Shown one piece after another: positions 1 through 31,966 of a stretch of DNA of 37,541 bases. The first letter of the stretch is position 1; each line of letters starts with the position of its first letter. Both the position numbers and the translations under genes were made by a program. Source of the DNA: Candidatus Rokuibacteriota bacterium (GTDB lineage Bacteria; Methylomirabilota; Methylomirabilia; Rokubacteriales; CSP1-6); the NCBI GenBank assembly GCA_003220435.1, contig QHSL01000010.1, positions 1 through 37,541 of the forward strand. The letters are read 5' to 3'. The notes under the pieces are model-generated. The model worked only from the letters and a program-made list of their open reading frames with translations, was not told the DNA's origin and ran no database searches.

Positions 1-228
1 ATTCAGCTCACGGTCTTCAAGATCGCGAAACTGAACAATCGCCGCGCCCAGACCCAGCTCACCGATCAGCGCCATGGCGTATGTCCAGACGCCCGCCAGC
101 GCCATCAGCCCGTAATCCGCGGGGTTCAGGAGTCGCGCGACCAGGAGCGCGGACAGCAACGAGGCGACCTGCACCACCCCCCGCGACCACACGACCCAGA
201 AGAGCGACCGGGCGACCCGATCCTTCAT
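1..228 (-). CDS. Wzx-type polysaccharide/lipid-linked oligosaccharide flippase, N-terminal fragment (runs off left edge)
   Basis: Only the first 76 codons are present; the frame stays open to base 1. The ATG at 228 lies 22 bp after the stop of the preceding GNAT gene, so it is the next gene of the minus-strand train. The protein starts MKDRVARSLFWVVWSRG, followed by a hydrophobic stretch, then ARLLNPADYGLMAL and a second hydrophobic stretch ending GELGLGAAIVQ. This N-terminal pattern (amphipathic start, 'ARLLxPxDYG' between the first two membrane helices, 'GLGxAIVQ') is typical of PST/MATE-like oligosaccharide flippases that move undecaprenyl-linked repeat units across the inner membrane. Inference: it exports the product assembled by the enzymes upstream. 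The call rests on the N-terminus only. Confidence 0.8.
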   Translation of the reverse strand, partial: MKDRVARSLFWVVWSRGVVQVASLLSALLVARLLNPADYGLMALAGVWTYAMALIGELGLGAAIVQFRDLEDRELN

Positions 229-250
229 CGGCAATGGACGCGACCCATCG

Positions 251-1342
251 TCACCGGGCTGCCCACCATTCCCCCTCCAGCCGCGTCAGAAACGCATCCC
301 CTCGATGGAGGGGCTCGAGCAATTCACGCCGTCTCGAATGCACCAGGGCCCACGAGCCAGCCCCCACATGCATGAGGCAGCGCTCGGCCAACAACGTCTC
401 GATCGATCCGGGGTCGAGCCGGCCGGAGACCGCGATGGCGCCTTGTCGCCAGGCGTCATGGAACAGATGCCTGACCACCCCACTCAGCGAACCCTTCTTG
501 GCCCCGAGCTGCACGACCTCGCTCATGCCGGCGGGCTTGAGATAGTAGAGGTACCAGCCGAGCGCTTGATCTGCGGCATCGCGCACCAGGACCTTCCGAA
601 ACTGCCCGCGGCCCTTCTTTTCGGCCAGGATCCCGAAGAGCCACTTCAGTGACTTCTCGTCGTACTCCGGCCGGAGCGCGCTGTCGCGCGAGGCGGCGGA
701 CACACACGCGAGGCATTCACTCTCGCGCAGCTCTTCCGCCGATGCGACTGGCCACGTGGGACGCGACGGCGGCGGCGCCAGCCGGGCGAGGAGCCGGTCG
801 GCCGCGAAACAAAAGGGCGTCAAGGCCATCGCCGCGATCGACCTCACTCCGTGCTGCTTCAAGAAGGACAGCGCGTATCGGCCCGGTCGAAGCGGGCGTG
901 TCCAGCGGACACTGTGGGGGAGCGAAGTGGTGCCGCCCAGTCTCTCCCAGATCGTTCGTGCCGAATCACTGCCCTCGGTGATGGACATCTCTTGCGGGCC
1001 GGAGAAGAACTCCTTGAGGAGCTGCAACCCGGCGCGCCCGCGTGCCCCCGGATGAACCATGAATTGAGAGGAGATCGCGACCTTCAGTGGCGCACCGTCT
1101 CTCACCATCGGCCGCGGGATCACGCCCAAAAACCCCCGAATCCGTCCGTCACCATCCTCGTACACCAGGCTGGGCAGCGCGGGATCGCGCCAGGGGTTGT
1201 TGAGGAACACCGCGGCGAAATGACTCAGGTATGAGTCGAGCCGCCAGGGGACGGCGGACTCGCTCGACCCGAACACCGTGCGGTTCAGCTCGGCCACCTG
1301 TTCCAGGTCGGTGTCCTTCACGAACGGCCGCACGCCGCTCAT
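251..1342 (-). CDS. GNAT-fold acyltransferase-like protein, 363 aa (paralogue A)
   Basis: 363 aa from ATG at 1342. The N-terminal ~115 residues resemble a GNAT domain: an opening 'VRPFVKDTDLEQVAELNRTVFG' type helix (quoted to 20: VRPFVKDTDLEQVAELNRTV), then PSLVYEDGDGRIRGFLGV and a VHP.ARGRAGLQLLKEF helix like an acyl-CoA-binding turn. A C-terminal half contains GWYLYYLKPAG.SEVVQ and ends HRGDAFLTRLEGEWW. Family knowledge: such proteins transfer acyl groups from acyl-CoA or acyl-ACP to amines. Its closest relative in the window is the 363-aa protein at 4708-5799 (same length, same PSLVYED, RPLRP.RYALS and HRGDAF.TRLEGEWW blocks). It lies between a gene relict (7 bp upstream) and the flippase. 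Substrate unknown; a role in N-acylating a sugar or amino acid is inferred. Confidence 0.75.
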   Translation of the reverse strand: MSGVRPFVKDTDLEQVAELNRTVFGSSESAVPWRLDSYLSHFAAVFLNNPWRDPALPSLVYEDGDGRIRGFLGVIPRPMVRDGAPLKVAISSQFMVHPGARGRAGLQLLKEFFSGPQEMSITEGSDSARTIWERLGGTTSLPHSVRWTRPLRPGRYALSFLKQHGVRSIAAMALTPFCFAADRLLARLAPPPSRPTWPVASAEELRESECLACVSAASRDSALRPEYDEKSLKWLFGILAEKKGRGQFRKVLVRDAADQALGWYLYYLKPAGMSEVVQLGAKKGSLSGVVRHLFHDAWRQGAIAVSGRLDPGSIETLLAERCLMHVGAGSWALVHSRRRELLEPLHRGDAFLTRLEGEWWAAR

Positions 1343-1349
1343 GCCGCGC

Positions 1350-1443
1350 TCAGCTCACCTTGCCATCGAAACGCGCGTGCATCACGCCGGCGATGCCGCC
1401 GTCAGCCGCGTATCGCGTCAGAAAAGCACCCCCTCGATATGCT
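1350..1443 (-). pseudogene. Relict 3' end of a third GNAT-type paralogue
   Basis: Between the methyltransferase stop (1444) and the GNAT start (1342), one frame reads YRGGAFLTRYAADGGIAGVM then HARFDGKVS and a TGA at 1350-1352. The first part matches the C-terminal signature of both 363-aa GNAT-type proteins (HRGDAFLTRLEGEWW). At DNA level a 26-nt stretch differs from the paralogue at 251-1342 at about three positions by hand count (TATCGAGGGGGTGCTTTTCT against CATCGAGGGGATGCGTTTCT, then CGACGCG-type sequence in both). There is no start codon, and the remainder of the gene is replaced by the methyltransferase. I read this as the tail of a deleted or recombined copy. The alternative is that the tail of the downstream copy was duplicated. 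Confidence 0.55.
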
Positions 1444-2199
1444 CTATCGTGCGAGGACCAACAGTCGCCACTTTCCCATCACACGTGCCGCCAGATCTCT
1501 GTGGATCGAGAACAGGATCCGACTCGGCCAGCCGAGGATCCCTCTCGCGGTGAAGCCGAGCAGCTTTCTGGCCAGTCTTCGGGGGTTATTCTTGTTTTCA
1601 TCCCAGACGAATCGCAGAGAATTGGCCTGCCACGTGTACACGTAGTCGATGACCTCGTAACCGACGTCCTTCAGCATCTGAATTGCGACGTCCTTCGTGA
1701 AGTAGTGGACGTGTCCGTAGGCGTCTCGAAACTCGATCAGCTGGCCGAGCAGGACGGTTCGCACCGATATATCCAGCGGGATTTGGATTATTTTGTATTC
1801 GCTCCTCGGCCGTATCTCTCTCAGGAAGCTGAAATAATCCTCCAGATGTTCGAGCACGTCCATGACCAGAATGAGATCGAAGTGCGCGCCTTCCTCCTGT
1901 CGAATGTCCGCCAGTTTGAAATGAAGTCTTTCGTTCGCCCGACGTTGAGCAAGCTCAAAGGCCTGCGGAGAGATCTCATACCCCCAACACGTGCATCCTT
2001 CGTCCATTCCATCCTGTACCAGCCGCAGCATCTCTCCAGCCCCGCACCCCACATCGCAGATCGTCTTCGGGGCAATCCCATTCTTCGCCATCATGCGAAG
2101 AACGTACTTTGCCTTCCACGGGGATTCGTCGGTATGCCACAGCGGGTTCTTCTCGAGGTACACGCCACCCGTGTAGAGTTCTTGGGGCATGCCCGCCAT
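1444..2199 (-). CDS. Class I SAM-dependent methyltransferase
   Basis: About 251 aa from ATG at 2199; a GTG at 2202 directly follows the upstream TAG and an ATG at 2190 is also possible. SAM-binding motif I is seen as ICDVGCGAGEMLRL, motif II as WGYEISPQAFELAQ, and the post-II/III region as FDLILVMDVLEHLEDY, followed by a YGHVHYFTKD segment. This is the Methyltransf_11/23-type layout found in many glycan and natural-product clusters. It probably methylates a small hydroxyl, amine or carboxyl acceptor, but the acceptor cannot be read from sequence. Start-to-stop contact with the FAD oxidoreductase suggests co-translation. Its base composition looks less GC-rich than its neighbours, a possible sign of separate acquisition. 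Confidence 0.85.
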   Translation of the reverse strand: MAGMPQELYTGGVYLEKNPLWHTDESPWKAKYVLRMMAKNGIAPKTICDVGCGAGEMLRLVQDGMDEGCTCWGYEISPQAFELAQRRANERLHFKLADIRQEEGAHFDLILVMDVLEHLEDYFSFLREIRPRSEYKIIQIPLDISVRTVLLGQLIEFRDAYGHVHYFTKDVAIQMLKDVGYEVIDYVYTWQANSLRFVWDENKNNPRRLARKLLGFTARGILGWPSRILFSIHRDLAARVMGKWRLLVLAR

Positions 2200-2202
2200 C
2201 AC

Positions 2203-3423
2203 CTAGCGTTCGATCCTTCTTCGCGCCACCGAGCCCGCGACGCGCCGTGCCGTCGCCCTACACCCCGCGACAAAGCGGTACAGGGGGCCGAAGGCGCGCA
2301 CCGCGGTCAGCCCGACAAAGTACAACCCCGACACGCTGCTCTCGAACCAGGGACTCAGGATTGGAACACTCATATCGGTTTCGATTGCCGCCCGCAGCGA
2401 GGGGTGGATCATCCTCAGCTTGTTGATATCGACCTGGTATCCAGTCGCCAGAATCACGTGGTCGGCTCTCACCTTCCCGCCGTCAGAGATGGTCACGTCG
2501 ACCTTCCCGCCGACCGTCTCCATCTTCACGACCGTCTGGCCTTCGTGCCTGGTCGCCTTGCCGATCACCCGATCCCTCAACCAGTCGGAGGCCGCGGCGC
2601 TGTAATAATTGCGAATGGCCTTGTCTTTGCGATGTTGAGCGAAGCGGTAGAAGAGATAGGGCGCATTCTCCAGAATCCAGTATTTCCAGCCAGGGGCGAT
2701 GCTCGCGTTCGGAGCCAGGATCTGTTCGAACATGCCACGCTCGCTCGCTCGATCGGGAGCCAGCCAGACAATTGGCCGACGCGACACGACGTGGACGGTG
2801 GCCCCAGCCTCGTGCAGGAGCGCGCTGAACTCTATCGCGCTCTGTCCGCCCCCGATGACGACAAGCTGCTGTCCCTCGAAGCGGCTGAAGTCATTGTGAT
2901 CACATGAATGCGAGACCAGTCCAGCAGGCAGACGGTACCTCTCCGGCCGATCGGCATAGTCATAGAGGCCGGTCGCCATGACGACTGCCGCACTCTGTAT
3001 CTTGCGCCCGTCCTCTAACGTCAGCTGAAAGTGATCGTTTTGACGCGCGATCGAGGACACGTAGGTGGCATCGACGTTCGGCACCGCACGTTCCTGGAAC
3101 CAGAGGCCATAGTCGATGAAGGCCTCGATCGGAACGGGGTAACATTTCTCATATCTCGACTCCCTGAAGAAGCGCGCAAACCCAAACTGTCGACGCGGAT
3201 CGGAGAGGTTGGTGGCCCACCAGTGGGAACGCAAAAGCATGCCGTTGGGCATGTGATCACGCCACAGTTCCAACGTCTTGCCGAAGACGGCGACCGCCAG
3301 TCCGCGCTCGAGCAGATGGGCCGCCGTCGAGAGACCGTACGGTCCCGCGCCGACAACCACCGCGTCATATCGCGGCGCAGATGTGGACCGCTGGGAGACG
3401 TGCATTCCCGGTAGAGCACTCAC
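2203..3423 (-). CDS. FAD/NAD(P)-dependent monooxygenase-like oxidoreductase
   Basis: 406 aa. The start is GTG at 3423, overlapping the upstream TGA as GTGA (4-bp overlap), so translation is probably coupled; an internal ATG lies at codon 7. The FAD-binding dinucleotide motif is VVVGAGPYGLS (residues ~23-32). A second Rossmann motif for NAD(P)H is VVIGGGQSAIE (~188-198), and the C-terminal ATGY flavin motif is ILATGYQVD. The arrangement matches the flavin-containing monooxygenase / N-hydroxylase superfamily (FMO, BVMO, ornithine N5-hydroxylase relatives). Likely reaction: NAD(P)H-dependent oxygenation of N, S or a carbonyl on the pathway intermediate. Together with the LLM monooxygenase at 16092 this gives the locus two flavin oxygenases. 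Confidence 0.85.
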   Translation of the reverse strand: MSALPGMHVSQRSTSAPRYDAVVVGAGPYGLSTAAHLLERGLAVAVFGKTLELWRDHMPNGMLLRSHWWATNLSDPRRQFGFARFFRESRYEKCYPVPIEAFIDYGLWFQERAVPNVDATYVSSIARQNDHFQLTLEDGRKIQSAAVVMATGLYDYADRPERYRLPAGLVSHSCDHNDFSRFEGQQLVVIGGGQSAIEFSALLHEAGATVHVVSRRPIVWLAPDRASERGMFEQILAPNASIAPGWKYWILENAPYLFYRFAQHRKDKAIRNYYSAAASDWLRDRVIGKATRHEGQTVVKMETVGGKVDVTISDGGKVRADHVILATGYQVDINKLRMIHPSLRAAIETDMSVPILSPWFESSVSGLYFVGLTAVRAFGPLYRFVAGCRATARRVAGSVARRRIER

Positions 3424-4640
3424 GAGAAGATGTTCCTCGAACGGGACAGTGTTTCCCGAATGACTTTCCCCGCCAAGCTACGCGTGAAATGGGAAGCTGC
3501 TTTGACGGCAGGCAGAGGGTCTCTCCAATCGACATAGTCGTACCGCATCAGTCTGAAACACGAGAGACCAAAGGCCAGGACCGCCTGTACGGGTGGCGCG
3601 ACTCCGGGCCTGCCTCGCTGCTGGAGCGCAGCGATCGTCGTCATGATGTCTCCCCTGAGATCTCGCATCCAGCCCCCAATGCGATAGTCTTCGACCTTAT
3701 CGATGGACCCTCCGGTCGCCCACTGATACAGCAGATAGGGAAAATCGACCCCGCATCGTACGGCGATCTCAACTGATGCGGAGAGCCGCGGGTTGATCTC
3801 CATCAGGTACGGTACATGGTTACTGTCACGCCGGAACTCGACTTCTGAGTAGCCCTCGAGGTCCAGTTCCCGCACAAGCGATTCGGCCTGAGCGCCTATG
3901 TCAGGCGGAACGACAATGCTCTGGCGTAATACCGAATTCCCGCCCAGCGGCGGTTCTGTTCGCTTTGCCCACTGCGCGAAGCGCGCATACATGTTGCCGT
4001 GGGCATACAGAAAACTTACCGCCTCGCGCCTCCCCGAGAGCAGTTGCTGGAACAGTGTGACTCCGCCCCAGCGCGTTAGCTCGGCGACGACCCGACGGGC
4101 TTCATCGGGACTCGCAACGACCCGGGGGACGACGCGCGTTCCCCCTTGTCCATGCCATAACCACGACTCGCAAGGTTTGACGACGGCCGGTAACCCTATT
4201 TCCTTCACCGCCATCGGAACCGCGTCGACCGTGCGAACGACGAGAGCGCGAGGTACGTTGATCCCCAGTCGCTTCGCCACGGCCAAGGTCCGCTCTTTAT
4301 TGACCGCAATGGTCAGCGCCCGTTCGTTCGCCAGGGCAATGCGTACTCGTTGTTCCACGCGAGCGCGATGCTGGCGAAGCAGGGCGATCGTGCCATCATG
4401 CGAGGGGATGAGCACTCGCGCACCTGTACGCTCCAGCAACGGCTCCAGGAAGCCGAGGTAGGCGCCTGTCGTGTCGACAGCAGGGCACAGAAATCCTCGC
4501 TGACACCAGCGCGACGAAAACGCTGGCGTCTCGCTCGAGGTCTCCAATGCCGCCACAGATAACGCCCGCCGACCGAGTGAGCGCACGGTGACAAGCGACT
4601 GCCTCAAACCTGCGTCAAGTACCAGTGCGTCGAATGCCAT
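3420..4640 (-). CDS. ATP-grasp carboxylate-amine/thiol ligase
   Basis: 406 aa. The open frame extends far upstream without protein-like sequence, so I place the start at ATG 4640, which has GGAGAG about ten bases before it. ATP-grasp signatures: lysine in PAVVKPCESWLWHGQGG (K155), the GYSEVEFRRD strand (~263-271), and the Mg-ATP motif LMEINPRLSAS (E281, N283, R285). The N-terminal ~115 residues are a preATP-grasp Rossmann-like domain with the fold of carbamoyl-phosphate-synthase-like ligases (IPSHDGTIALL). Members activate a carboxylate as acyl phosphate and couple it to an amine or other nucleophile. Inference: it joins an amino acid or other acid to the product. It follows the GNAT gene by 67 bp and overlaps the FAD oxidoreductase. 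Confidence 0.85.
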   Translation of the reverse strand: MAFDALVLDAGLRQSLVTVRSLGRRALSVAALETSSETPAFSSRWCQRGFLCPAVDTTGAYLGFLEPLLERTGARVLIPSHDGTIALLRQHRARVEQRVRIALANERALTIAVNKERTLAVAKRLGINVPRALVVRTVDAVPMAVKEIGLPAVVKPCESWLWHGQGGTRVVPRVVASPDEARRVVAELTRWGGVTLFQQLLSGRREAVSFLYAHGNMYARFAQWAKRTEPPLGGNSVLRQSIVVPPDIGAQAESLVRELDLEGYSEVEFRRDSNHVPYLMEINPRLSASVEIAVRCGVDFPYLLYQWATGGSIDKVEDYRIGGWMRDLRGDIMTTIAALQQRGRPGVAPPVQAVLAFGLSCFRLMRYDYVDWRDPLPAVKAASHFTRSLAGKVIRETLSRSRNIFS

Positions 4641-4707
4641 TCGGACCGGACTCTCCACGATCAGCCCGACCCCACCGCGGCGGGGCCAGGTGAACGATGA
4701 GCTGGAC

Positions 4708-5799
4708 TCAAGTGAGGATGAAGCCGACCCACCACTCGCCCTCCAGTCGCGTGATGAAGGCGTCTCCCCGGTGGATGGCCTGGAGCAGGTCCCCTCGCCG
4801 GGAGTGAACCAACAACCCCGGGCCGCCGTCGTGGCGGAAGAGGCAGCCCGCGCGCGTGAGGGCGGGAAAGGCCGCGGGGTCGAGCTGACCGGTGAGCGCC
4901 GTGGCGCCCCCGCGCCACGCGTGGGCGAAGAGGTGGTCGAGGACCGCACCGGCGCAAGCAGCCGAAGCACCCACCTGCACGACCTCGCTCGTCCCGGCCG
5001 GGTTGAGGTAGTAGAAATACCAGCCGGCGACCTCTCCGGAGGGTCGGCGAACAACGACCTTCTGGAAGGCGCCGGCTCCCGGCTTGCTGGCCATCAGATC
5101 GAGCAGCCACTTCGCAGAGTTGCGATCGTAGTGCGGTCGCAGCGACCGGTCGCGCACCACGTCGTCGAGGCTCTCGACGAACGTGTCGACGTCGAGCTCC
5201 TCCCCGGCAAGATCCGACGGCGGGATGCGGAACGGGTTGGTCCGGACGCGCGCGGCCAGCGTGTCCAGGGCACGACAGAAGGGCGCGAGCGCGGACACCG
5301 GCAGCGCTGACAGCCCGCCGCGTCTCAGGGACGACAACGCATATCGCGCCGGACGGAGGGGGCGCAGCCAGCGCACGCCGTAGAACGGCGAGGGCACGCC
5401 CCCGATCGCCTCGAAGATCCGGCGCGACACGTGCGCGCCCTGGGCGAGAACGAGATCCTGGGGGCCCGACAGGAACGCCTTCACGAGCTCGACGCTGACC
5501 GGGGCCGCGCGGCGTCCCGGCTCGATCATGACGGTGTGGCTGACGACGGCGCGGACCGGCTCACCCGCGATCGACATCGGGCGCGGCATGACACCGATGC
5601 AACCCACGACCCGCCCGTGCTCGTCTTCGTACACGAGCGAGGGCAGCGCCTCGTCCCGCCACGGATGGTCCCACAAGACTGCGTGGAGCGTATCTTCGAG
5701 CCAGCCCGGCGGGGCTGTGGACGCCGATCCGAAGACCCGTCGGTAGAGGTCGGCGATCTGCACGATGTCGGCTTGGGCCAGTGGCCGAACGCGTCCCAT
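4708..5799 (-). CDS. GNAT-fold acyltransferase-like protein, 363 aa (paralogue B)
   Basis: 363 aa from ATG at 5799, five bases after the stop of the Wzy/ligase-like gene. It is clearly homologous along its whole length to the protein at 251-1342: both share the PW..PALPSLVYEDE/D.GR opening region, the IEPGRR/VHPGAR segment where a GNAT pantetheine-binding loop would sit, RPLRPARYALS in the centre, GWYFYYLNPAGTSEVVQ, and HRGDAFITRLEGEWW at the end. The GNAT assignment rests on this general pattern, not on a strong motif. Duplicate acyltransferases in one operon usually act on different acceptors or with different donors; here the two carrier proteins and two ligases could supply two donors. 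That pairing is inference. Confidence 0.75.
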   Translation of the reverse strand: MGRVRPLAQADIVQIADLYRRVFGSASTAPPGWLEDTLHAVLWDHPWRDEALPSLVYEDEHGRVVGCIGVMPRPMSIAGEPVRAVVSHTVMIEPGRRAAPVSVELVKAFLSGPQDLVLAQGAHVSRRIFEAIGGVPSPFYGVRWLRPLRPARYALSSLRRGGLSALPVSALAPFCRALDTLAARVRTNPFRIPPSDLAGEELDVDTFVESLDDVVRDRSLRPHYDRNSAKWLLDLMASKPGAGAFQKVVVRRPSGEVAGWYFYYLNPAGTSEVVQVGASAACAGAVLDHLFAHAWRGGATALTGQLDPAAFPALTRAGCLFRHDGGPGLLVHSRRGDLLQAIHRGDAFITRLEGEWWVGFILT

Positions 5800-5804
5800 C
5801 GTGG

Positions 5805-7109: not shown

Positions 7110-7408
7110 CAGCGTGTGGCCATCGAAGAGCCGCCGCCGCGGCCGGGCTGGGCGGAGCTGGAGGCAACGACCTTGCTGATGCCGTTGATGGTCGTAAAGT
7201 CCTCGCTCATGAGGACGTCCTCGTCGACCTGGACGTCGAACGTGGATTCGGCGAACGTGACCAGTTGCACAAACCCGACCGAATCCACAAAGCCGCACTC
7301 GAAGAGGTGCGCGTCCCGCGTGAACATCGGGTCGTTGTCTGCGACCTGAAACTCTGTACGAATGAACCGTTCGATCGCCTCGGCAATACTAGTGGGCGAG
7401 AAAGCCAT
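7109..7408 (-). CDS. Acyl/peptidyl carrier protein (ACP 2)
   Basis: 99 aa, start ATG at 7408, 20 bp inside the 3' end of the asparagine-synthase-like gene. The attachment motif FVDSVGFVQLV places the phosphopantetheine serine at S43; helix I is IAEAIERFIRTEF and the helix II-III region is FDVQVDEDVLMSEDFTTING. The C-terminus carries a ~15-residue Ser/Gly/Arg-rich tail. Carrier proteins of this kind, found next to AMP-forming ligases, hold an acyl or aminoacyl thioester. Its position directly after ligase, aminotransferase and amidotransferase suggests it carries the substrate of those enzymes. Confidence 0.88.
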   Translation of the reverse strand: MAFSPTSIAEAIERFIRTEFQVADNDPMFTRDAHLFECGFVDSVGFVQLVTFAESTFDVQVDEDVLMSEDFTTINGISKVVASSSAQPGRGGGSSMATR

Positions 7409-9958: not shown

Positions 9959-11465
9959 AGGCACGCTTGATCCGGACCCGATCGGGCTTGCCCGAGGTCG
10001 TCTGGGGAAATGCCTCGAGCCGCCAGATGTCTCGGGGCCTCAGATATTGCGGCATTTCACGCTTACAGAACTCGGCCAGCCGCTCCTCCGAAAAGGTGGC
10101 GGGGTCCTTCGGCGCTACCGCGATCACGATGTCCTGCTCGACCTCGTTCACGCTGACCGCGAAGGCCACCACGTTCGCGACCAGATCCGACTCGAACACC
10201 CAGTGCTCGACCTCGTCGGGGCTCACGCGAAACCCCTGGGCCTTGATCAGCTGGTCCCGGCGACCGACGAAGTAGAGATAGCCCTCGGCATCCCGCTTGA
10301 CCAGATCCCCCGAAAAGACCACCGTTTCGACGCGACCTCCTCCAGCCGCCGGCAGCGGGTGCGGTCGGAACGCTTTGGCCGTGCTCTCCGGGTCGCGCCA
10401 GTAGCCCATCGCCACGGTCGCCCCGCGGTGAACGAGCTCACCGGTCTCGCCCGCGCCGCAGAGTCGCCCCTCGTCATTCACCACGAGGATCTCGACGTTC
10501 GGGATCGCCTTGCCCATCGAGGTCGGTCGCCCGTCCACCTGGTCTGGCGGCAGGTAGGTCGATCGGAAGGCCTCCGTCAAGCCGTACATGAGGTAGACGC
10601 TCACGTGGGGATGCGTGCCGCGGATCCGGCGCACCACGGGTTCCGGCAGCCGGCCCCCGGTGTTCGTGATGTAACGCAGATGGGGAAACGCAAGACGGGT
10701 GAAGGGCGAGCGGTCCTCCGTCAGCTGGAGCCAGAGCGTGGGAACTCCCGCCATTCCCGTGACTTTCTCCCGGCGAAGCGTGTTGCAAACGTCTGGCGGG
10801 AACGTCGAGCGTTGGATCACGAGGGTCCCTCCCACCAGGAGGGCCCCGAGCAGTTGATTGAGGCCGTAGTCAAAGCTGAACGGGAGCAGGCTGATCAGGA
10901 CGTCCCGCTCTGAAAGCCCGAGATAATCCGCCACGATCTGGGCGCCCGCGACGAGGTTGGCGTGACTGACCATCACGCCCTTCGGGAGCCCGGTGGACCC
11001 CGAGGTGTAGATGATCAGCGCCAGATCGGCGCCGATCGTGGATGGGGGCGAGCCCACGGTGGCCAGAGCTTTGGTTTCGTCCACGCAAATGATCCGGGCC
11101 CTGTCGATCGCGGGATCCGGGACGTACAGCATTTGCCGGCTGTCGGTGAGGAGCAGAGACGCCTGGCTGTGCTCCAGGATGTAGTTCACCTGCCGGGGGC
11201 GCAGCGCCTCGTTGACGATGACCGCGACGCCGCCGGCAAAGTATGTTGCGAAGAGCGCGATCACAGCCTCGACGGACCGGCGCAAGAAGATCGCGACGCG
11301 GTCACCCCGGGTCAACCCCGCCTCTTGCAACAGACTCGCGTACCCGAGCGACTGCTCGAGGAGCTCGGCGTAGGTCATGCGCCGTTGGCCGTCGACGACA
11401 GCCGGCTTTTCCGCCACGCTGCCGCCGTGGTGTCGTTTCAGGATGTCAGCGACGGTGTACACCAT
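9933..11465 (-). CDS. AMP-forming acyl-CoA/acyl-carrier ligase (ANL superfamily)
   Basis: 510 aa from ATG at 11465. Core motifs: P-loop LIIYTSGSTGLPKGVM (~150-165), LPFSFDYGLNQLLGA, YGLTEAFRSTYLP, VFSGDLVKRDAEGYLYFVGR with the hinge aspartate region, and the C-terminal lysine in TTSGKPDRVRIK. Length is complete for the ANL family. The FSFDYGLNQL segment recalls the acyl-CoA ligases linked to exosortase/EPS loci, but this is memory of a family pattern, not a search result. Role: adenylate an acid and load it on CoA or on carrier protein 2. It precedes the aminotransferase and amidotransferase and overlaps the former. Confidence 0.85.
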   Translation of the reverse strand: MVYTVADILKRHHGGSVAEKPAVVDGQRRMTYAELLEQSLGYASLLQEAGLTRGDRVAIFLRRSVEAVIALFATYFAGGVAVIVNEALRPRQVNYILEHSQASLLLTDSRQMLYVPDPAIDRARIICVDETKALATVGSPPSTIGADLALIIYTSGSTGLPKGVMVSHANLVAGAQIVADYLGLSERDVLISLLPFSFDYGLNQLLGALLVGGTLVIQRSTFPPDVCNTLRREKVTGMAGVPTLWLQLTEDRSPFTRLAFPHLRYITNTGGRLPEPVVRRIRGTHPHVSVYLMYGLTEAFRSTYLPPDQVDGRPTSMGKAIPNVEILVVNDEGRLCGAGETGELVHRGATVAMGYWRDPESTAKAFRPHPLPAAGGGRVETVVFSGDLVKRDAEGYLYFVGRRDQLIKAQGFRVSPDEVEHWVFESDLVANVVAFAVSVNEVEQDIVIAVAPKDPATFSEERLAEFCKREMPQYLRPRDIWRLEAFPQTTSGKPDRVRIKRAYEEHHQRS

Positions 11466-11498
11466 TCGTTCGGTTCGGTTGGTCTCGGTCTTCGACAG

Positions 11499-12716
11499 CT
11501 AGCGATGCGCGGATTGGATGTCGACGGAGGCCAGCTGCGCCAGCACGGGACTGGGAGAAAATCGAGGACCGTGCTGCCGCGCCCAGCTCGCCAACTGCCC
11601 GACGATCTTGTCGCTGCCGACACGACGGGCGTACTCCAGCGGTCCACCCTGCGGCTGCGGCCACCCAAGGCCCAGGACCGCACCGAGATTTGCATCCTCG
11701 GGCGAGGAAACAATTCCCTCGGCGAGGCAGTGACCGATCTCGTTGATCATCTGCCAGATGGGACGGGTGGAGACCTCCGTCGGGCCGGAAATCCCGTTCG
11801 GGCTCGATCCGATCAAGGGGTAGACCCGGGCGTCGACCGCGCGGCCTTCAGGGTCGAGGTAGAAGCCCTTCGCTCCGTCGCGGTGGCTGCGCCCATAGCC
11901 CAGATGACCCGCGTCCAGGACCGGCCACAGGCGTTGGATAGATTCGACGCGTTCCCCGAGATGTTCGGAGATCGAGTCATACACGCCCCGGAGGATCTCG
12001 ATCCCGACCGCGTCCATCAGGCGAAACGGGCCCATGGGCCAGCCGAAGGCGCGCATCGCGCCGTCCACCGCCTCGATGGAGGCCCCCTCGCTCACCAGGG
12101 CGATCGCCTCGTTGAGGTACACCAGCAGGACCCTCGTCGTGAAGAAGCCGGGCCTGTCTCGCACGAGGAGCGGCACCTTGCCCTGCCAGGACGCCATCGC
12201 GAGCGTCCGTTGCAGCGCGCGCGCGCTCGTCACCTCGGAGGGGGCGATCTCGACGAGCCGATAGCGGTGGGCGGGCCAGAAGTAGTGGGTGCCGATGACG
12301 CGGTCGGGCCGGCGGGCGGCCGCGGCAATCCGCGTGATCGGGATCGACGACGTATTGCTGGTGATGAGGCAATCGGGCGAGACGAACCGTTCGATGGCGG
12401 CGAGCACCTCTTGTTTCGTCCGGACGTCTTCGGCTACAGACTCGACGACACATTCCACCCCGTCAAGGTCCGCGTAGCTTGGGGTGAGATGAATGTTGTG
12501 CAATCGGGCTTCGGCCTCGGCCGCGCAGATGCGCCCGCGCTCGACATCCGACGTATAACTGAGCGAAAGCATATCCGCGGCACGCCGGACACCTCCCGGG
12601 CGCGGTGCGACGACGACGACCGTGGCATCGAGATCCGAGAGCAGCCGCGCGATGCCCGATCCGACGGTGCCGGCCCCGACGACTCCAAACCGGCGGGCAT
12701 GGCCCCTATCGGTCAT
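11499..12716 (-). CDS. 3-hydroxyacyl-CoA dehydrogenase family protein
   Basis: 405 aa from ATG at 12716, overlapping the ketoacyl synthase stop by 11 bp. The NAD-binding motif is FGVVGAGTVGSGIARLL (~9-25). Catalytic-region motifs are SNTSSIPIT, GTHYFWPAHRYRLVEI (the family's GMHFFNPVH with the active His) and RDRPGFFTTRVL before the C-terminal helical domains (AIDGAMRAFGWPMGP-type segment, NEIGHCLAEGIV). Family members oxidise or reduce the 3-hydroxy/3-oxo position of acyl thioesters. Here it probably reduces the beta-keto product of the KAS III next door, giving a 3-hydroxyacyl group; direction is inferred. It has two 3HCDH C-terminal repeats, as in full-length FadB-type or PaaH-type enzymes. 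Confidence 0.9.
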   Translation of the reverse strand: MTDRGHARRFGVVGAGTVGSGIARLLSDLDATVVVVAPRPGGVRRAADMLSLSYTSDVERGRICAAEAEARLHNIHLTPSYADLDGVECVVESVAEDVRTKQEVLAAIERFVSPDCLITSNTSSIPITRIAAAARRPDRVIGTHYFWPAHRYRLVEIAPSEVTSARALQRTLAMASWQGKVPLLVRDRPGFFTTRVLLVYLNEAIALVSEGASIEAVDGAMRAFGWPMGPFRLMDAVGIEILRGVYDSISEHLGERVESIQRLWPVLDAGHLGYGRSHRDGAKGFYLDPEGRAVDARVYPLIGSSPNGISGPTEVSTRPIWQMINEIGHCLAEGIVSSPEDANLGAVLGLGWPQPQGGPLEYARRVGSDKIVGQLASWARQHGPRFSPSPVLAQLASVDIQSAHR

Positions 12717-13737
12717 GCCACCCGTTTCCCTTGTAGTCGTACCACCGGTACGTCACGGCACCCCAGGCCATGCCCGCCCCGACGGTGGGCATGACGAGCC
12801 AGTCACCGTCGCGGAACTTTCCTTGCTCCAGCGCGACCGGAATCGAGGCGGCAGCGATGTTGCCGGTGTGCGGGTACGTCATGACGAACTTTTCGATGTC
12901 GAGGCCGAGGCGCTGAGCGATAGCGCGCAAGATGCCGGCCGATGCCTGGTGGGGGACCACCCACGCGATGTCGTCGAGCGTCAGGCCCGAGCGCTTCAGC
13001 GCCTCCGACGTACAGAATGCGGCGCGATCAACCGCCCAGGTATTGATCTCGGCGAACATGAGGTGCAGGTAGTGGAGACCTTGATCGAGCATCTCCTGAT
13101 CGAACGGCCTCTTGCCGCCGCCGCCCGGGACACGGACATAGTGGCCCAGGTGCCCGTCCGATCCGGTGACGAAGGCTCGAACGCCGTAACCCGTGTCCGT
13201 TGGCTGACGGTGAAGCACCACGGCGCCGGCGCCGTCACCGAACACCGTGAGCGGCATGAATTTCCGGGGATCACACAGCCGGGACAGCGTGTCGGCGCAA
13301 ACCACGAGAGCGGTTTCATAGCGGTGCGCGTCGAGAAGGCCGCAGGCGACGAGCAGGCTGTCCAGGAATCCGGTGCAGGCGGAGTCGAGCTGGATGACCT
13401 TGGCCGTCGCGCCAAGATTCGTTTGCACCATCATCGCGGCTTGCGGCAGGCGGCAATCGTTGGTGATGGTGGCCATGACGATGACGTCGACGTCTCCGGG
13501 GTCCAGTCCCGCATCGCCGAGGGCCCGTCGGGCCGCCACCGTCGCCATGTCCGACGTGCACTCATCGGGGCGAGCCCAGTGACGTGACACGGCGCCATGC
13601 CGGGACCGCGCCCACTCGTCGAGGCTCACACCTCCCACCCGGGCACGGTCGTAGTCCACGTCCATCGCTTCGAGATCATCGTTGGTCACGATGCGCTCGG
13701 GCAGATAGCTTCCGATGCCCACAATGATGTTGCTCAT
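12706..13737 (-). CDS. Beta-ketoacyl synthase III (FabH-like)
   Basis: 343 aa from ATG at 13737, with a strong Shine-Dalgarno (AGAAGGAG, eight bases upstream) that fixes the start. Thiolase-fold catalytic triad: Cys121 in LDSACTGFLDSL, His263 in VPHQASAGIL, Asn293 in HTGNIAAASIPVAL. KAS III enzymes condense an acyl-CoA starter with malonyl-ACP; some relatives instead transfer acyl groups to other acceptors. Adjacent ACP 1 (3 bp upstream) and the 3-hydroxyacyl-CoA dehydrogenase (overlapping) make a dedicated short-chain acyl-building set. This is a second, pathway-specific copy rather than the housekeeping fabH, since no fab genes surround it. Confidence 0.93.
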   Translation of the reverse strand: MSNIIVGIGSYLPERIVTNDDLEAMDVDYDRARVGGVSLDEWARSRHGAVSRHWARPDECTSDMATVAARRALGDAGLDPGDVDVIVMATITNDCRLPQAAMMVQTNLGATAKVIQLDSACTGFLDSLLVACGLLDAHRYETALVVCADTLSRLCDPRKFMPLTVFGDGAGAVVLHRQPTDTGYGVRAFVTGSDGHLGHYVRVPGGGGKRPFDQEMLDQGLHYLHLMFAEINTWAVDRAAFCTSEALKRSGLTLDDIAWVVPHQASAGILRAIAQRLGLDIEKFVMTYPHTGNIAAASIPVALEQGKFRDGDWLVMPTVGAGMAWGAVTYRWYDYKGNGWHDR

Positions 13738-13740
13738 GCG

Positions 13741-14013
13741 TCAGCTCCTTCTCTCGGCGAGCTGCGTGGCACCACTGCCATTCAGGAGGAAGGCGGCGAT
13801 TCGTTCGACGGATCTGAAGTTGTCGATCTCCACCTGGTCGAGCGTGATCTTGACCCCGAACTCCTTCTCCAGGTAAAAGACCAGCTCCACGAAACCCAGC
13901 GAGTCCAGCACGCCGGTTTCCAACAGGTCCGTCTCCGGCGACGGGATCTCGAGGTGAAGACTTTTCAGGAACCAGTCGGCGATTCGTCGCTGGACAGCAC
14001 CCGGGTCGGACAT
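13741..14013 (-). CDS. Acyl carrier protein (ACP 1)
   Basis: 90 aa, ATG at 14013. Phosphopantetheine site LDSLGFVELVFYLEKEFG with Ser38; helix I RRIADWFLKSL, helix III NFRSVERIAAFL. It is a standard type II ACP and, unlike ACP 2, has no long tail. It lies between the GNAT gene (stop 14016) and the KAS III gene, so it is the likely partner of the KAS III and the source of acyl groups for the adjacent GNAT. A holo-ACP synthase is not in the window. Confidence 0.93.
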   Translation of the reverse strand: MSDPGAVQRRIADWFLKSLHLEIPSPETDLLETGVLDSLGFVELVFYLEKEFGVKITLDQVEIDNFRSVERIAAFLLNGSGATQLAERRS

Positions 14014-14015
14014 TC

Positions 14016-14528
14016 TCAGATTTCCTTGTGCTCGGACGCGAGGAGATCGAGCCACAGGCGGTCGTACGCACGGCCGTCGATGTAGTGACACTGGCGTTGC
14101 CGGCCGATGATCTTGAAGTTGAGACGCAGCGCGATTCCGACCGAGGGATTGGGGGGCTGCGTGTCGACGGCCCAGCTATTCACCGCATGGAGGCCGAGAT
14201 CGCGAAAGATCAGCGTGAGCATCTGGGCTGCCGCCCGGGTAGAGTACCCCCGGCCCCGAAAGCTCTTGTCGCCGGCGACGAACCAGAACCGCCCCGTCTT
14301 GAAGGTGCGATTCACAGAGTCGAGGCCCGCGACTCCGATCGGGGTGCCGTCATCGGAGGTCCACACGCGTAGGAAGTTCGTGTCGCGCTGGGTCATGATC
14401 TTGAGCCACTCCGGGCTGACGATCTGCTTGCCGTCGCCGAAGTCCAGCCACTGGTAGTTCTCTTTTTGGGCCAGCCAGCCCGCGACCAGATGCAGGAGCT
14501 CAGGACTGTCGATTGGCTTCAGCTGCAT
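14016..14528 (-). CDS. RimJ/RimL-like GNAT N-acyltransferase
   Basis: 170 aa from ATG at 14528, overlapping the adenylation gene by 29 bp. Residues ~65-85 (PIGVAGLDSVNRTFKTGRFWF) form strand 4. The acyl-CoA pyrophosphate-binding turn is seen at DKSFRGRGYSTRAAAQMLTL. A conserved asparagine region (HAVNSWAVDTQPPNPSVGIA) and a RLNFKIIGRQRQCHYIDGR tail follow. This pattern fits RimJ/RimL or PseH/FlmH-like N-acyltransferases, which acylate amino-sugars or protein N-termini. Position between the adenylation enzyme and ACP 1 suggests acylation of the amino group of the activated amino acid or an amino-sugar, with ACP or CoA as donor. Confidence 0.85.
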   Translation of the reverse strand: MQLKPIDSPELLHLVAGWLAQKENYQWLDFGDGKQIVSPEWLKIMTQRDTNFLRVWTSDDGTPIGVAGLDSVNRTFKTGRFWFVAGDKSFRGRGYSTRAAAQMLTLIFRDLGLHAVNSWAVDTQPPNPSVGIALRLNFKIIGRQRQCHYIDGRAYDRLWLDLLASEHKEI

Positions 14529-16119
14529 GGGCTTCGAACGCCTCCGTGAGCCGGCGCCGGTCGGTCTTGCCATTGGCGTTTTGGGGGAAGCTGTCGAACG
14601 CCATCCACCGCGTTGGCAGCATGTACGGCGGCAGCGCCCGGCTCAGCTCGCTCCGGAGGGCCGCCGGAGTCACCGGCGCGCCCGGCGCCGGGACATAGGC
14701 ACAGCAGATGGCGGTGCCTTCGAAGCCATCCGTCGTGATGGCGACGACGGCGCATTCTCGCAAACCGCCGGCCGCGTTGAGCGCCGCCTCGATTTCGCCG
14801 AGCTCGATCCGATAGCCCCGACTCTTGATCTGAGAGTCGGTGCGCCCGTGGAAGTGGACGAAGCCGTCGTGGTCGATCCTGGCAAGGTCGCCGGTCTTGT
14901 AGACGCGTCCCGATCCGCCCGCGCGGTACGGGTGCGGCCGGAACGCGTCCGCGGTCTTCGCGGGGTCTCTCCAGTACCCGGGGCTCAGCCCCACGCCGCC
15001 GATATACAGCTCCCCGATCTCGCCGGGGGCGACCGACTCCATCCGCTCGTCGAGCACGAGAAGCTCTTCGCCGTCACAGGCGAGGCCGATCGGGATCGGC
15101 GCCTGGGGATCGTCCGGGCATCGGGGAACCGTATAGTAGCTGCTCGCGATGGTCGTCTCGGTTGGGCCGTAGAGGTTCGTGAATCTCACGTGGGGCAGGC
15201 GCTCCATCCAGTACATCAGCGCCGGCGTGGGCAGGACCTCGCCACACCAGAGGACACGCCTCAGGGCCGGGAAGTCGTCGAACTTGACGACATCGAACTT
15301 CGCCATGTAGTTCAGGGCGGCGGGCACCGAGAACCATTGCGTCAGCTCCGCCGTCCGGATGAGCTCGGCGAGCTTGTTCGGGAGAAGGTTGAGCTCGGAG
15401 GGCACGAGGTGCAGCTGCCCGCCCACCGCGAAGGTCCCGAAGATATCGAAGATGGACAAGTCGAAATTGAGCGGAGGATGCCCCGACACGCGGTCGGACG
15501 AGTCCATTCCAAAGTACGTCGTCGCCCACTCGACGAACTTGATCACGTTGGCGTGCGTGATGACGACGCCTTTGGGAGTGCCCGTCGACCCGGAGGTAAA
15601 GAGGATATGCGCCGGGTCATCCCTCGTATTGTCGTGGTCCAGGCGACCGGCGGAATACCCCTGAAGGTCGTCCGCCGTGAAGTCGACCTGATCGGTGTTC
15701 GCCGCGCTCCAGGGCCCGGCGTCCATCCATCCGACAGATATCGGGGCTCGCAACTGGTGGTCGGCCAGGACGTCGCGCAGCAGGCACGCCGTCGGCGTCG
15801 CCGCCAGGATCCATCGGTTTTCACAGGACGCGAGGATTTTCGCGAGCCGGCTCGGAGGACTGGCGGAATCGAGGGGTACGTAGGTACAGTCCGCCTTGTA
15901 GATTCCGAGCACGCTCACAATGGCGGCCGGCGATTTCGGTACCAGCAGGGCGACCCGGTCGCCGCGATTGCACCCGCGGTCCCGGAGGAGTCTCGCGAGC
16001 TGGTTCGACCGTGCCTCCAGCTCCGCGTACGTCACGGTCTCGTCGACTCCGACGACGGCGACGCTCTCGGCGCGTCGGGCTGCCTGTGCGCTTACCCAGT
16101 CTTGGAGTAGCTCGGGCAC
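14500..16119 (-). CDS. Stand-alone amino-acid adenylation enzyme (NRPS A-domain type)
   Basis: 539 aa. No ATG precedes the conserved start of the domain; GTG at 16119 (VPELLQDWVSAQA), 28 bp inside the end of the monooxygenase gene, is the best start. NRPS core motifs are ordered: A2 YKADCTYVPLD, A3 ILFTSGSTGTPKGV (~172-185), A4 PLNFDLSIFDIFG, A5 NLYGPTETTI, A7 YKTGDLARIDHDGFVHFHGR, A8 KSRGYRIELGEIEAAL, A10 FPQNANGKTDRR with the catalytic lysine. The aspartate of the A4 FDxS motif, which binds the substrate alpha-amino group, is kept, so an alpha-amino acid is the likely substrate. It lacks condensation, carrier and thioesterase domains, so it must load a separate carrier such as ACP 1 or ACP 2. 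Confidence 0.92.
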   Translation of the reverse strand: MPELLQDWVSAQAARRAESVAVVGVDETVTYAELEARSNQLARLLRDRGCNRGDRVALLVPKSPAAIVSVLGIYKADCTYVPLDSASPPSRLAKILASCENRWILAATPTACLLRDVLADHQLRAPISVGWMDAGPWSAANTDQVDFTADDLQGYSAGRLDHDNTRDDPAHILFTSGSTGTPKGVVITHANVIKFVEWATTYFGMDSSDRVSGHPPLNFDLSIFDIFGTFAVGGQLHLVPSELNLLPNKLAELIRTAELTQWFSVPAALNYMAKFDVVKFDDFPALRRVLWCGEVLPTPALMYWMERLPHVRFTNLYGPTETTIASSYYTVPRCPDDPQAPIPIGLACDGEELLVLDERMESVAPGEIGELYIGGVGLSPGYWRDPAKTADAFRPHPYRAGGSGRVYKTGDLARIDHDGFVHFHGRTDSQIKSRGYRIELGEIEAALNAAGGLRECAVVAITTDGFEGTAICCAYVPAPGAPVTPAALRSELSRALPPYMLPTRWMAFDSFPQNANGKTDRRRLTEAFEAHAAEANRQS

Positions 16120-17162
16120 TTCGAAACCTCGAGAGCTCGCTGAAACGTGAGCATCGTGTGGTCCAGGTCCTCCGCGGCCGCGGGAACGTCCAGGATGAAC
16201 GTCCGGTAACCGACGTCGAGGTAGCCCGACAATTCTTCCGCGACCCGGTCGTAGCTCCCCACCAGGTAGGGACACATGGTCTTGTAGTTCTGGAAGGGCA
16301 CGAGCCAGTACGGCCCCTGCCCGTCTCCGTTCCCCATGTCCGACAGCTGCTTGTGCCAGACGGAGTCCGAGACCTTCATGGCCAGCTGATGGACGAGCTG
16401 ACCCTTGCGGTCCTCGGGGAAGCGCGCCCGGGCCACGCCCCAGGCCTCCTCGTCGCGCTCGCGACTGATGATGCCCACGCGAATCCCGCGCGCGAGCACG
16501 CCAGCATGGCTGCGACCCTGATAGTCCCGCGCCGGCTTCGGGTATTCGATGGCCGTCGCGCCGATGGCCCGAGCCGCCGTCAGGCCCGCCTCCGACGAGC
16601 TCGAGACGAAGATGCCGGGTAGGAGGTCCCTGTCCAGGGGCGGCGACAATTTCAGATTGACCGCCTTGTAGAATTCGCCGTCAGCGCTCACCGGCGAGCC
16701 GCCGGCCAGCAGCCGCGTGATGATCGTCGTGTACTCGGTGAGCCGTTCGTACCGTCGATCGTGCGGCGTCGTATCGTTCAGCGCGGTCAAATCGTTCTTG
16801 AAGCCGCCCGCCACCATGTTGAGGTATATCCGTCGCCCGTAGAGATACGCAAAGGTTGTGATCATCTTGGCGACCGTGTAGGGGTGCATGTACACCGGCT
16901 GCACGGCGACCAGCGGGCACAGAGACTTCGTGTTCTGGATGATCACGTGCGAGACCAGCCAGGCGTCGACCTGCGAGTTGTCGGAATAGACTAGAATCCC
17001 GCGGCAGCCGGCGCGCTCGCTCCACCGGGCGACCTCGGCGACATGCTGGCCGTGCACGTCTCCCGCGGCGCCGCTCGAGGGCGGGCAGGTGGAAAAAACC
17101 TCGATCCCGTCATGTGCGCCGTTCATCGGATGGGCTTCGCCCCCTTCGGTTCGTGGCTTCAT
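16092..17162 (-). CDS. Luciferase-like (LLM) FMN-dependent monooxygenase
   Basis: 356 aa from ATG at 17162; an ATG at 17126 (MNGAHDGIEVFSTCPPS) fits the family's usual N-terminus and is an alternative. The TIM-barrel LLM pattern includes WSERAGCRGILVYSDNSQVD, VAVQPVYMHPYTVAKMI, GRRIYLNMVAGGFKNDL, RYERLTEYTTIITRLL and GIFVSSSSEAG (phosphate-binding strand). These match SsuD-like flavin oxygenases, some of which occur inside NRPS/PKS clusters. It uses reduced FMN from a separate reductase, not seen here. As the first gene of the tight train, followed by an overlapping adenylation gene, it is probably a tailoring oxygenase for the product. Confidence 0.88.
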   Translation of the reverse strand: MKPRTEGGEAHPMNGAHDGIEVFSTCPPSSGAAGDVHGQHVAEVARWSERAGCRGILVYSDNSQVDAWLVSHVIIQNTKSLCPLVAVQPVYMHPYTVAKMITTFAYLYGRRIYLNMVAGGFKNDLTALNDTTPHDRRYERLTEYTTIITRLLAGGSPVSADGEFYKAVNLKLSPPLDRDLLPGIFVSSSSEAGLTAARAIGATAIEYPKPARDYQGRSHAGVLARGIRVGIISRERDEEAWGVARARFPEDRKGQLVHQLAMKVSDSVWHKQLSDMGNGDGQGPYWLVPFQNYKTMCPYLVGSYDRVAEELSGYLDVGYRTFILDVPAAAEDLDHTMLTFQRALEVSKCPSYSKTG

Positions 17163-19120: not shown

Positions 19121-19173
19121 CCGTCCCTGGTGGATGAGCGAGCGGGCGGGATGCGTACGACGGAGATTCCGAG

Positions 19174-19191
19174 AACGGCCTCAACGGCCTA
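19174..19191. repeat. Tandem AACGGCCT direct repeat in the divergent intergenic region
   Basis: AACGGCCT occurs at 19174-19181 and again at 19183-19190, giving a 9-bp period, and runs straight into TATATG. It lies between the minus-strand GumC-like leader and the plus-strand beta-helix genes. It might be an operator or promoter element. Apart from this, the hairpin and the small frame, I see nothing clear in the 404-bp gap 18927-19330. Confidence 0.25.
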
Positions 19192-19330
19192 TATGTTTCC
19201 TACGCCCGCCCGGTCCGGGGCAGACACGCGTGCCCAGGCGTTTCCGTACCGCCCGATCCCATCGGCTCAGCAAGGCATCGCTCGCGCGGTTTGGCTTCGA
19301 CGTCATCTCGAGCTGCAAAGGAGGAATGTC

Positions 19331-20083: not shown

Positions 20084-20094
20084 AGGAGGTCCCA

Positions 20095-20990: not shown

Positions 20991-21195
20991 TCACGTCACG
21001 CCAGCGAGTCCACAGCGGGTCGCCTCCAGCGGCCGCCGCATCGGCCGCTCGCACTCTCCCATGGCCGCACTGGTCGCCTGCGTCAGTTGTTGTTCGCTTG
21101 CCGCGCTCCGCGAGGTCCGGCGTTCCTGACCGCGCTTCCCTGGGTCAGATCTGCAGCAGTCGCGCTCAGTCGGGCCATGCGAGAATGTCGTCGCC

Positions 21196-22842: not shown

Positions 22843-22848
22843 CGCGCG

Positions 22849-27679: not shown

Positions 27680-27744
27680 TTACGTGTGACCCCAGACGAC
27701 CTCGCCTCGCCGGCGACTGTCTGCAAATCGTACTCGACGGACAA

Positions 27745-29274: not shown

Positions 29275-29292
29275 CAACTTATTTCAGGAGAG

Positions 29293-31958: not shown

Positions 31959-31966
31959 GTCCTGTA

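Follow-up and report, generated by a model that had tools for sequence, protein, structure and literature searches.

Among the questions raised by the genome of Candidatus Rokuibacteriota bacterium (assembly GCA_003220435.1), a puzzling one concerns contig QHSL01000010.1, where genes for loading small acids onto carrier proteins run together with genes for the export and polymerisation of a glycan: what could such carrier-protein chemistry be doing in a polysaccharide locus? The stretch analysed, hereafter the window, is this whole contig of 37,541 bases (C19) within a genome of 5.4 Mb (G000). The original prediction saw here a probable undescribed system, in which one amino-acyl/3-hydroxyacyl unit is built across two carriers by a whole train of genes. 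We consider it probable, instead, that the window holds a Rokubacteria exopolysaccharide (EPS) locus of the Wzx/Wzy-dependent type with two independent carrier-protein decoration modules: module 1, built on a luciferase-like flavin monooxygenase (LLM), a stand-alone adenylation domain (A-domain) and an acyl or peptidyl carrier protein (ACP1), and module 2, made of an AMP ligase, an aminotransferase, an AsnB-like amide synthetase and a second carrier (ACP2). Gene content, order and conservation, the split into two modules and the motifs can all be read directly from the DNA.

A gene train within an exopolysaccharide locus

The gene set was drawn from open reading frame (ORF) and start/Shine-Dalgarno (SD) listings together with Pfam and NCBIfam profile scans of the window proteins. 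These sources agree with the prediction of seventeen minus-strand genes across positions 1-17162, which follow one another as listed here, with an additional gene outside the predicted train on the last line. G003 designates the closest match, a Rokubacteria metagenome-assembled genome (MAG) of the same genus.

16092-17162, minus strand: module 1, LLM of SsuD-like type (start 17162 or 17126; Bac_luciferase 4.2e-30)
14500-16119, minus strand: module 1, stand-alone A-domain with code DLFSLCLIAK (AMP-binding 2e-83; TIGR01733 394 bits, above the cut-off of 317.4)
14016-14528, minus strand: module 1, GNAT N-acyltransferase (Acetyltransf_1/3 over cut-off; 89% identical in G003)
13741-14013, minus strand: module 1, carrier protein ACP1 (PP-binding 3.6e-9, using the longer reading 13741-14091)
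12706-13737, minus strand: KAS III, FabH-like (ACP_syn_III_C 3.1e-26; PRK09352 260.8, above 249)
11499-12716, minus strand: 3-hydroxyacyl-CoA dehydrogenase, like the C-terminal half of FadJ (3HCDH_N 2.1e-45; NCBIfam match)
9933-11465, minus strand: module 2, AMP ligase of XrtA-associated type (TIGR03098 557.9, below the cut-off of 592.35)
8768-9958, minus strand: module 2, class I/II aminotransferase (Aminotran_1_2 1.9e-40)
7389-8771, minus strand: module 2, AsnB-like ATP-dependent amide synthetase, no N-terminal Cys (Asn_synthase 4.5e-15)
7109-7408, minus strand: module 2, carrier protein ACP2 (start 7408 or 7459; PP-binding 7.8e-6)
5805-7109, minus strand: membrane protein of Wzy/O-antigen-ligase type (Wzy_C 1.1e-20; 74.4 bits, above 31.7)
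4708-5799, minus strand: tandem-GNAT acyltransferase GN2 (weak Acetyltransf_9; 47% identical to GN3)
3420-4640, minus strand: ATP-grasp ligase (ATPgrasp_Ter 5.5e-11, using the longer reading 3420-5054)
2203-3423, minus strand: flavin adenine dinucleotide (FAD)-dependent oxidoreductase/monooxygenase (Pyr_redox_3 2.7e-26)
1444-2202, minus strand: S-adenosylmethionine methyltransferase (Methyltransf_23 2.3e-17)
251-1342, minus strand: tandem-GNAT acyltransferase GN3 (59% identical in G003; best Foldseek matches GNATs)
1-234, minus strand: Wzx-type flippase, contig-end fragment of 78 aa (Polysacc_synt 34.2 bits, above 28.2; 72% identical to the G003 flippase)
17379-18926, minus strand: Wzz chain-length determinant (TIGR03007 260.1, cut-off 278.85; 44% identical in G003)

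The train is tightly packed, with junction overlaps of 28, 29, 11, 26, 4, 20, 1 and 4 bp (ATGA, GTGA and TGATG among them) and remaining gaps of 0-33 bp, except for 67 bp between GN2 and the ATP-grasp gene and 101 bp between the methyltransferase gene and GN3. The seventeen genes thus stand as predicted, while the limits set for them do not. Only 252 bp separate the LLM start at 17126 from the same-strand Wzz gene upstream of it, which leaves the boundary at 17162 uncertain. At the other end, the contig stops at base 1, and the flippase, of which the first 76-78 codons are retained, is cut off together with anything past it. A promoter and terminator scan of the window gave background levels and hence lends no support to a single transcript, and Rfam and tRNA scans of the window returned no matches. 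Condensation domains and thioesterases are absent from the Pfam matches of the train, as had been predicted.

The nature of the locus is best appreciated in G003, where it lies on a contig of 75,135 bases (C146; L021 and L022). The ten genes from the LLM to ACP2 keep their order and strand there, with one insertion and at 52-89% identity, and such conservation in a second genome makes the arrangement more than chance. The G003 locus opens with an UpxY/RfaH-type antiterminator, Wzz, an XrtA-type ATPase and a tyrosine kinase (both scoring below cut-off), an initiating sugar transferase, a small ORF and Wzy. It continues with the LLM, A-domain, GNAT, ACP1, KAS III, dehydrogenase, a tandem GNAT, the AMP ligase, aminotransferase, AsnB-like protein and ACP2, and closes with another tandem GNAT, an NAD-epimerase, a full-length flippase, an amidotransferase (TIGR03108 665.2, cut-off 816.9), a GT4-type gene, a deacetylase, a GT4, two unlabelled ORFs and a heparinase. 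Initiating transferase, Wzy, flippase, amidotransferase and GT4 genes together mark an exopolysaccharide locus, and the window is accordingly best read as a Wzx/Wzy-dependent EPS locus, which upholds the earlier idea of carrier-protein chemistry inside a Wzx/Wzy glycan locus. No initiating sugar-phosphate transferase occurs among the scanned window proteins; this lack, noted in the original prediction, is probably a trait of the window contig, since the syntenic G003 gene passes its model (TIGR03025 305.2, above 295.55). Three window proteins, the ATP-grasp ligase, the FAD oxidoreductase and the methyltransferase, found no counterpart at 1e-5 within the G003 stretch; a locus from a MAG labelled Nitrospirae (L024) carries the ATP-grasp protein at 73% identity and the FAD oxidoreductase at 78% over 132 residues.

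Module 1: monooxygenase, adenylation domain and carrier

Twelve module-1 loci were compared: the window, G003, four from a scan for the GNAT (L024, L025, L030, L031) and six from a search for the LLM. The LLM search, which covered 95 genomes of the phylum with up to 21 candidates scored per genome and an E limit of 1e-50, gave 8 matches from 7 genomes; the weakest had an E value of 7.1e-122, and none fell between that value and the limit. For the scan of genome contigs, the GNAT alignment served as marker and yielded 9 loci, a choice that biases the GNAT count; one of them (L023) is the G003 contig itself, and four (L026-L029), with no LLM or A-domain in their stretches, were left out of the set of twelve. 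Two loci, L031 with a truncated A-domain and L048 on a contig that ends after the LLM, stand outside the counts of ten A-domains and the correlations below. The LLM of L050, read as 851 aa, is probably an over-long ORF call, and the ATP-grasp gene of the window, masked by an overlapping ORF in the gene call for the twelve loci, was placed from the ORF, start/SD and Pfam results.

In this set, the LLM, the A-domain and an ACP1-like carrier each occur in 11 loci, the GNAT in 7 and a tandem GNAT in 6. LLM and A-domain are found together in 10 of the 12, the LLM directly before the A-domain every time (10/10), and the module is intact in 10 of the 12. The MAGs concerned carry the labels Rokubacteria, Nitrospirae, Terrabacteria group ANGP1 and Gemmatimonadetes, which may err, and the remaining genomes belong to the window's phylum. 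Pairwise identities of the LLM, A-domain and ACP1 proteins are correlated over the 10 loci (r 0.75, 0.56 and 0.53; Mantel p 0.0045, 0.0070 and 0.0085).

All ten full-length A-domains retain the code DLFSLCLIAK, the sole variation being F/Y and I/V. An alignment to DltA structures, in which the S, C and A positions are shared, extends over six of the ten code positions; the placing of the others is presumptive, and a code of this kind would denote a small amino acid (D-Ala in DltA). The D/N-S-L/M attachment site is present in all 11 ACP1 proteins, that of the window included. As for the LLM, its best sequence match in the Protein Data Bank (PDB) is the alkanesulfonate monooxygenase SsuD, although it scores far under the cut-off of the SsuD model (TIGR03565, 98 vs 518.2). 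A flavin reductase gene follows ACP1 in L025. Across the eight LLM-found loci of the phylum, a GNAT occurs in three, a formyltransferase in two and neither in two, the last being cut by a contig end.

Relatives of the LLM are also borne on plasmids (10 records, five regions read). In four of the five regions, from Rhizobium, Gemmobacter, Tritonibacter and Streptomyces, AMP-binding or nonribosomal peptide synthetase (NRPS) genes stand no more than about 6 kb from the plasmid LLM (42-49% identity). The best plasmid match of the A-domain was 41% identical (E<=1e-80) and that of the GNAT 33% (E<=1e-15), and a plasmid search with KAS III at 1e-60 found none.

Three further observations concern these loci. 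The Rhizobium plasmid pMK-3 (L054) carries, in one run near conjugation genes, a decarboxylase, an acyl-CoA ligase, a carrier, an AMP-binding protein, a P450, a phosphopantetheinyl transferase (PPTase) and the LLM. G003 has a second LLM/A-domain/ACP copy elsewhere in its genome (L051, C47, 40000-59999), together with a formyltransferase-type gene. In L031, the A-domain, GNAT and ACP1 are followed at 1337-6995 by a haem-oxygenase-like protein, a second ACP-like one (recognised by eye), a short AMP-binding protein, an SDR, a Cys/Met pyridoxal phosphate (PLP) enzyme and a homoserine O-succinyltransferase.

Module 2: ligase, aminotransferase, amide synthetase and second carrier

The four genes of module 2 adjoin in the same order in the window, in G003 and in a third genome, G018; ACP2 is followed by a tandem GNAT in G003 and G018, and by Wzy and then GN2 in the window. 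In G018, the module (L065) shows identities of 66% for the ligase, 64% for the aminotransferase, 55% for the AsnB-like protein, 52% for ACP2 (also 52% in G003) and 49% for GN3. Module 1 (L049) is about 17 kb away on that contig, and the interval contains GT4, heparinase and further EPS genes. Within the twelve fetched module-1 stretches, the aminotransferase and AsnB-like genes occur in 2, although the case of G018 indicates that a gene missing from a stretch need not be absent from the genome. Of the seven LLM-positive genomes, four (G002, G010, G032, G067) gave no TIGR03098 ligase match at E<=1e-90 among the candidates scored, at most 21 in each.

The AsnB-like protein, which starts at 8771, retains the pyrophosphatase loop SGGxDS of asparagine synthase B (SGGQDS or SGGLDS in the two members aligned, those of the window and G003), whereas the N-terminal glutaminase nucleophile Cys2 is missing from both. 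Its sole PDB sequence match at E<=0.001 is the AsnB-related carbapenam synthetase CarA, a weak one (E 8.9e-5) over 132 residues; CarA likewise works without a glutaminase. To judge from these features, the protein probably couples an acid with an amine instead of with glutamine-derived ammonia. GN2 and GN3 score under the Pfam gathering threshold, and their profile found nothing significant among PDB sequences; at low TM score, Foldseek matched their structure model best to GNATs, several of which are tandem proteins, so that the model points to a GNAT fold, probably a tandem one.

KAS III and the dehydrogenase

Between the two modules, KAS III and the 3-hydroxyacyl-CoA dehydrogenase come after ACP1 in both the window and G003. 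KAS III is 81% identical in G003, and all its other matches, at 35-41%, were taken as housekeeping FabH; at E<=1e-70 it occurs in 2 of 57 genomes of the family, those two. Its use as a locus marker was dropped on account of the low identity of these other matches. The Cys, His and Asn motifs can be read in the protein, with roles that we presume to be the usual ones, and the dehydrogenase, looked for in the fetched loci, occurs in the window and G003 (2/12). Together both enzymes could make a 3-hydroxybutyryl-type group, of the sort found in viosamine-type decorations; a literature search on this decoration returned no direct paper.

Relation to known systems

The closest known relatives of the chassis are the EPS loci of the XrtA (exosortase A) type, linked to flocculation in Aquincola and Zoogloea (PMC9850573). 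The likeness, by similarity, extends to Wzz, the ATPase, the tyrosine kinase, an EpsB_2-type sugar transferase, the amidotransferase, and an ACP with a TIGR03098-type ligase. However, all seven XrtA-associated models score below cut-off, TIGR03098, 03007 and 03097 in the window (the last with the Wzy protein, 122.6 vs 188.1) and 03015, 03018, 03013 and 03108 in G003, and the LLM, A-domain, KAS III and dehydrogenase are additions. No exosortase (PF09721) was found on the window contig, the matches of this genome lying on C47 and C54 only, although contigs are short and a distant gene is possible; nor was one found on the G003 locus contig, with matches on C53, C23 and C134 of that genome. A better-scoring member of the same family of organisms, G017, has a ligase over the TIGR03098 cut-off (635.8), followed by a TIGR03099-like decarboxylase (447.5, cut-off 478.45) and, about 5 kb on, by an exosortase that passes the general model TIGR02602 and fails the XrtA one; since both decarboxylase and exosortase fall below XrtA-specific cut-offs, G017 was rejected as a canonical XrtA locus. 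No TIGR03099-type decarboxylase lies beside the window ligase, whose neighbour is the Aminotran_1_2 protein. Compared with G017, the window thus differs in its PLP enzyme and carries an amide synthetase in addition.

Other systems share single features with the locus. Flagellin glycosylation islands with ACP, LuxE/LuxC, CaiC and FabG (PMC4875605, PMC7874193) also embed carrier-protein acyl chemistry in a glycan locus, with other enzymes, with no A-domain or LLM in the passages covered, and with flagellin instead of an EPS as target. MupA, which according to PMC10952193 hydroxylates an ACP-bound thioester together with an FMN reductase, offers a parallel, in that the window LLM, too, would use reduced flavin mononucleotide (FMNH2) and act on a carrier-bound thioester; it differs in being SsuD-like, in its presumed aminoacyl rather than polyketide substrate and in the lack of a KS0 bimodule. 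The stand-alone A-domain, the small carrier and similar specificity residues recall DltA and DltC, yet the A-domain falls short of the DltA model (TIGR01734, 293.6 vs 559.85) and no MBOAT protein (DltB) is among the Pfam results of the train. With NRPS lines the window shares an A-domain over the TIGR01733 cut-off and a PP-binding carrier, unaccompanied by the condensation and thioesterase domains.

Taken against the literature covered, the type of EPS chassis and ACP-borne decorations in glycan loci are already known (PMC9850573, PMC4875605, PMC7874193), and the claim of an undescribed system finds no support for the locus as a whole. Among the matches listed in a search of open-access literature, a limited test, neither the LLM/A-domain/ACP trio in polysaccharide loci nor the ligase/aminotransferase/AsnB-like/ACP2 set was found; within this coverage, the trio and the composition of module 2 are the only parts that seem undescribed.

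Two proposed decoration modules and the alternatives

The scheme that we propose would proceed as follows, with substrates, reaction order, transfer and acceptor identity predicted from sequence. In module 1, the A-domain would charge ACP1 with a small amino acid through its DltA-like pocket, and the LLM, supplied with FMNH2 by a flavin reductase, would oxidise the carrier-bound aminoacyl thioester, whose amine may be capped by the GNAT or, in two other loci, by a formyltransferase-type protein. In module 2, the XrtA-type ligase would charge ACP2 with an acid, which the aminotransferase and the AsnB-like synthetase would convert to an amide-containing unit. A 3-hydroxyacyl part may come from KAS III and the dehydrogenase, which would add or make it in the window species and one relative. 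From the carriers, the tandem GNATs GN2 and GN3 would transfer the groups to an amino sugar of the lipid-linked repeat, and the decorated repeat would be flipped by Wzx and polymerised by Wzy and Wzz.

Several observations weigh against this scheme, above all the GNAT found apart from an A-domain, the module-1 loci lacking recognised EPS genes and the weak structure models. A flavin reductase of the family seen in L025 occurs in just 1 of the 12 module-1 loci, and the Priestia plasmid region (LLM 30% identical) has no AMP-binding gene in its gene table. The fetched stretches of L026-L029 contain the GNAT but neither A-domain nor LLM (in L027 the GNAT lies 210 bp from a contig end); its neighbours there are UDP-sugar dehydrogenase and GT4 genes (L026, L028, L029) or a flavin reductase, so that its substrate may be a sugar instead of the aminoacyl carrier. 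No EPS genes were recognised among the scanned neighbours of L051, which include HpaB, a molybdopterin oxidase and a methionine-synthase-like protein, and in L030 and L050 nothing homologous to the EPS genes of the remaining loci was seen, most of their neighbours being outside the scan. No glycosyltransferase was found by Pfam scans inside the window train. The structure models are poor as well: that of the AsnB-like protein (pLDDT 43.9) was unusable and allowed no fold search, and that of GN2/GN3 is weak (pLDDT 57.6, TMq about 0.3).

The module-1 loci without recognised EPS genes (L030, L050, L051), together with plasmid relatives of the LLM that sit in natural-product-like surroundings with halogenase, P450, acyl-CoA dehydrogenase or PPTase genes, would fit a small-molecule, NRPS-like cluster in or beside an EPS locus, whose product is a free metabolite and not a glycan decoration. 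We regard this as unlikely, given that Wzy lies inside the overlapping train of the window with the flippase at its end, that EPS genes stand before and/or after module 1 in G003, L024, L025, L048 and L049, and that a homologue (43%) of the EPS-type amidotransferase comes after the module-2 tandem GNAT in L065. It is quite improbable, in turn, that the window is an ordinary XrtA/PEP-CTERM EPS locus drifted under the model cut-offs, with no new chemistry. All seven models do score well, exosortases and PEP-CTERM proteins occur elsewhere in the window genome, and the shortfalls of G017 suggest that drift is common here; yet seven of seven models fall below cut-off, neither locus contig carries an exosortase, and the window has an aminotransferase and AsnB-like gene after the ligase, plus the LLM/A-domain/ACP1 set, where G017 has a decarboxylase and exosortase. 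As for the single amino-acyl/3-hydroxyacyl unit of the original prediction, tight gene packing and the place of KAS III and the dehydrogenase after ACP1 in both species speak in its favour, but modules 1 and 2 occur apart, KAS III is present in 2/57 genomes of the family, and the aminotransferase and AsnB-like genes accompany module 1 in 2/12 stretches, which leaves this scheme very improbable. Two independent decoration modules are our preferred reading.

A bolder version of module 1 may be entertained tentatively. GNATs and formyltransferases are both known as N-acyl capping enzymes in hydroxamate siderophores, and the LLM, A-domain and ACP might form a portable cassette, apart from NRPS lines, for the oxidation of a single, fixed small amino acid on its carrier (N- or alpha-hydroxylation) and for the addition of interchangeable N-acyl caps from a GNAT or formyltransferase, giving an oxidised aminoacyl, possibly hydroxamate-like, EPS decoration. 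The hydroxamate idea, based on this exchange of caps, was kept out of the main scheme, since the GNAT occurs in L026-L029 with neither an A-domain nor an LLM.

Other features of the contig and of related loci

Further along the contig, a second same-strand train (26912-37541, minus strand) comprises a DUF2142 protein, two GT2s, two sulfotransferases and two methyltransferases, and is probably another glycan cluster, possibly a sulfated one. Between both trains lie two adjoining NosD/beta-helix repeat proteins (19130-20874, plus strand, opposite to the first train), a nucleotidyltransferase-domain protein, weakly MntA/HalB-like (21130-21528, plus strand), a MASE1 sensor histidine kinase with a response-regulator-like gene (21985-24483, minus strand) and an ORF of 618 aa with coding-like GC content at third codon positions and no Pfam match (24875-26731, plus strand). 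Lastly, two GNAT-scan loci, L027 (798-2538) and L028 (10588-12328), encode proteins 99-100% identical between MAGs labelled Acidobacteria and Betaproteobacteria, by recent transfer or mis-binning.

Implications

If the proposed scheme is true, natural-product carrier chemistry, with its adenylation and on-carrier oxidation, would be a modular route for uncultured soil bacteria to vary their surface polysaccharides, and genome mining keyed on condensation domains could overlook such modules. The near-invariant code of the A-domain makes the key prediction, the loading of a small amino acid, directly testable.

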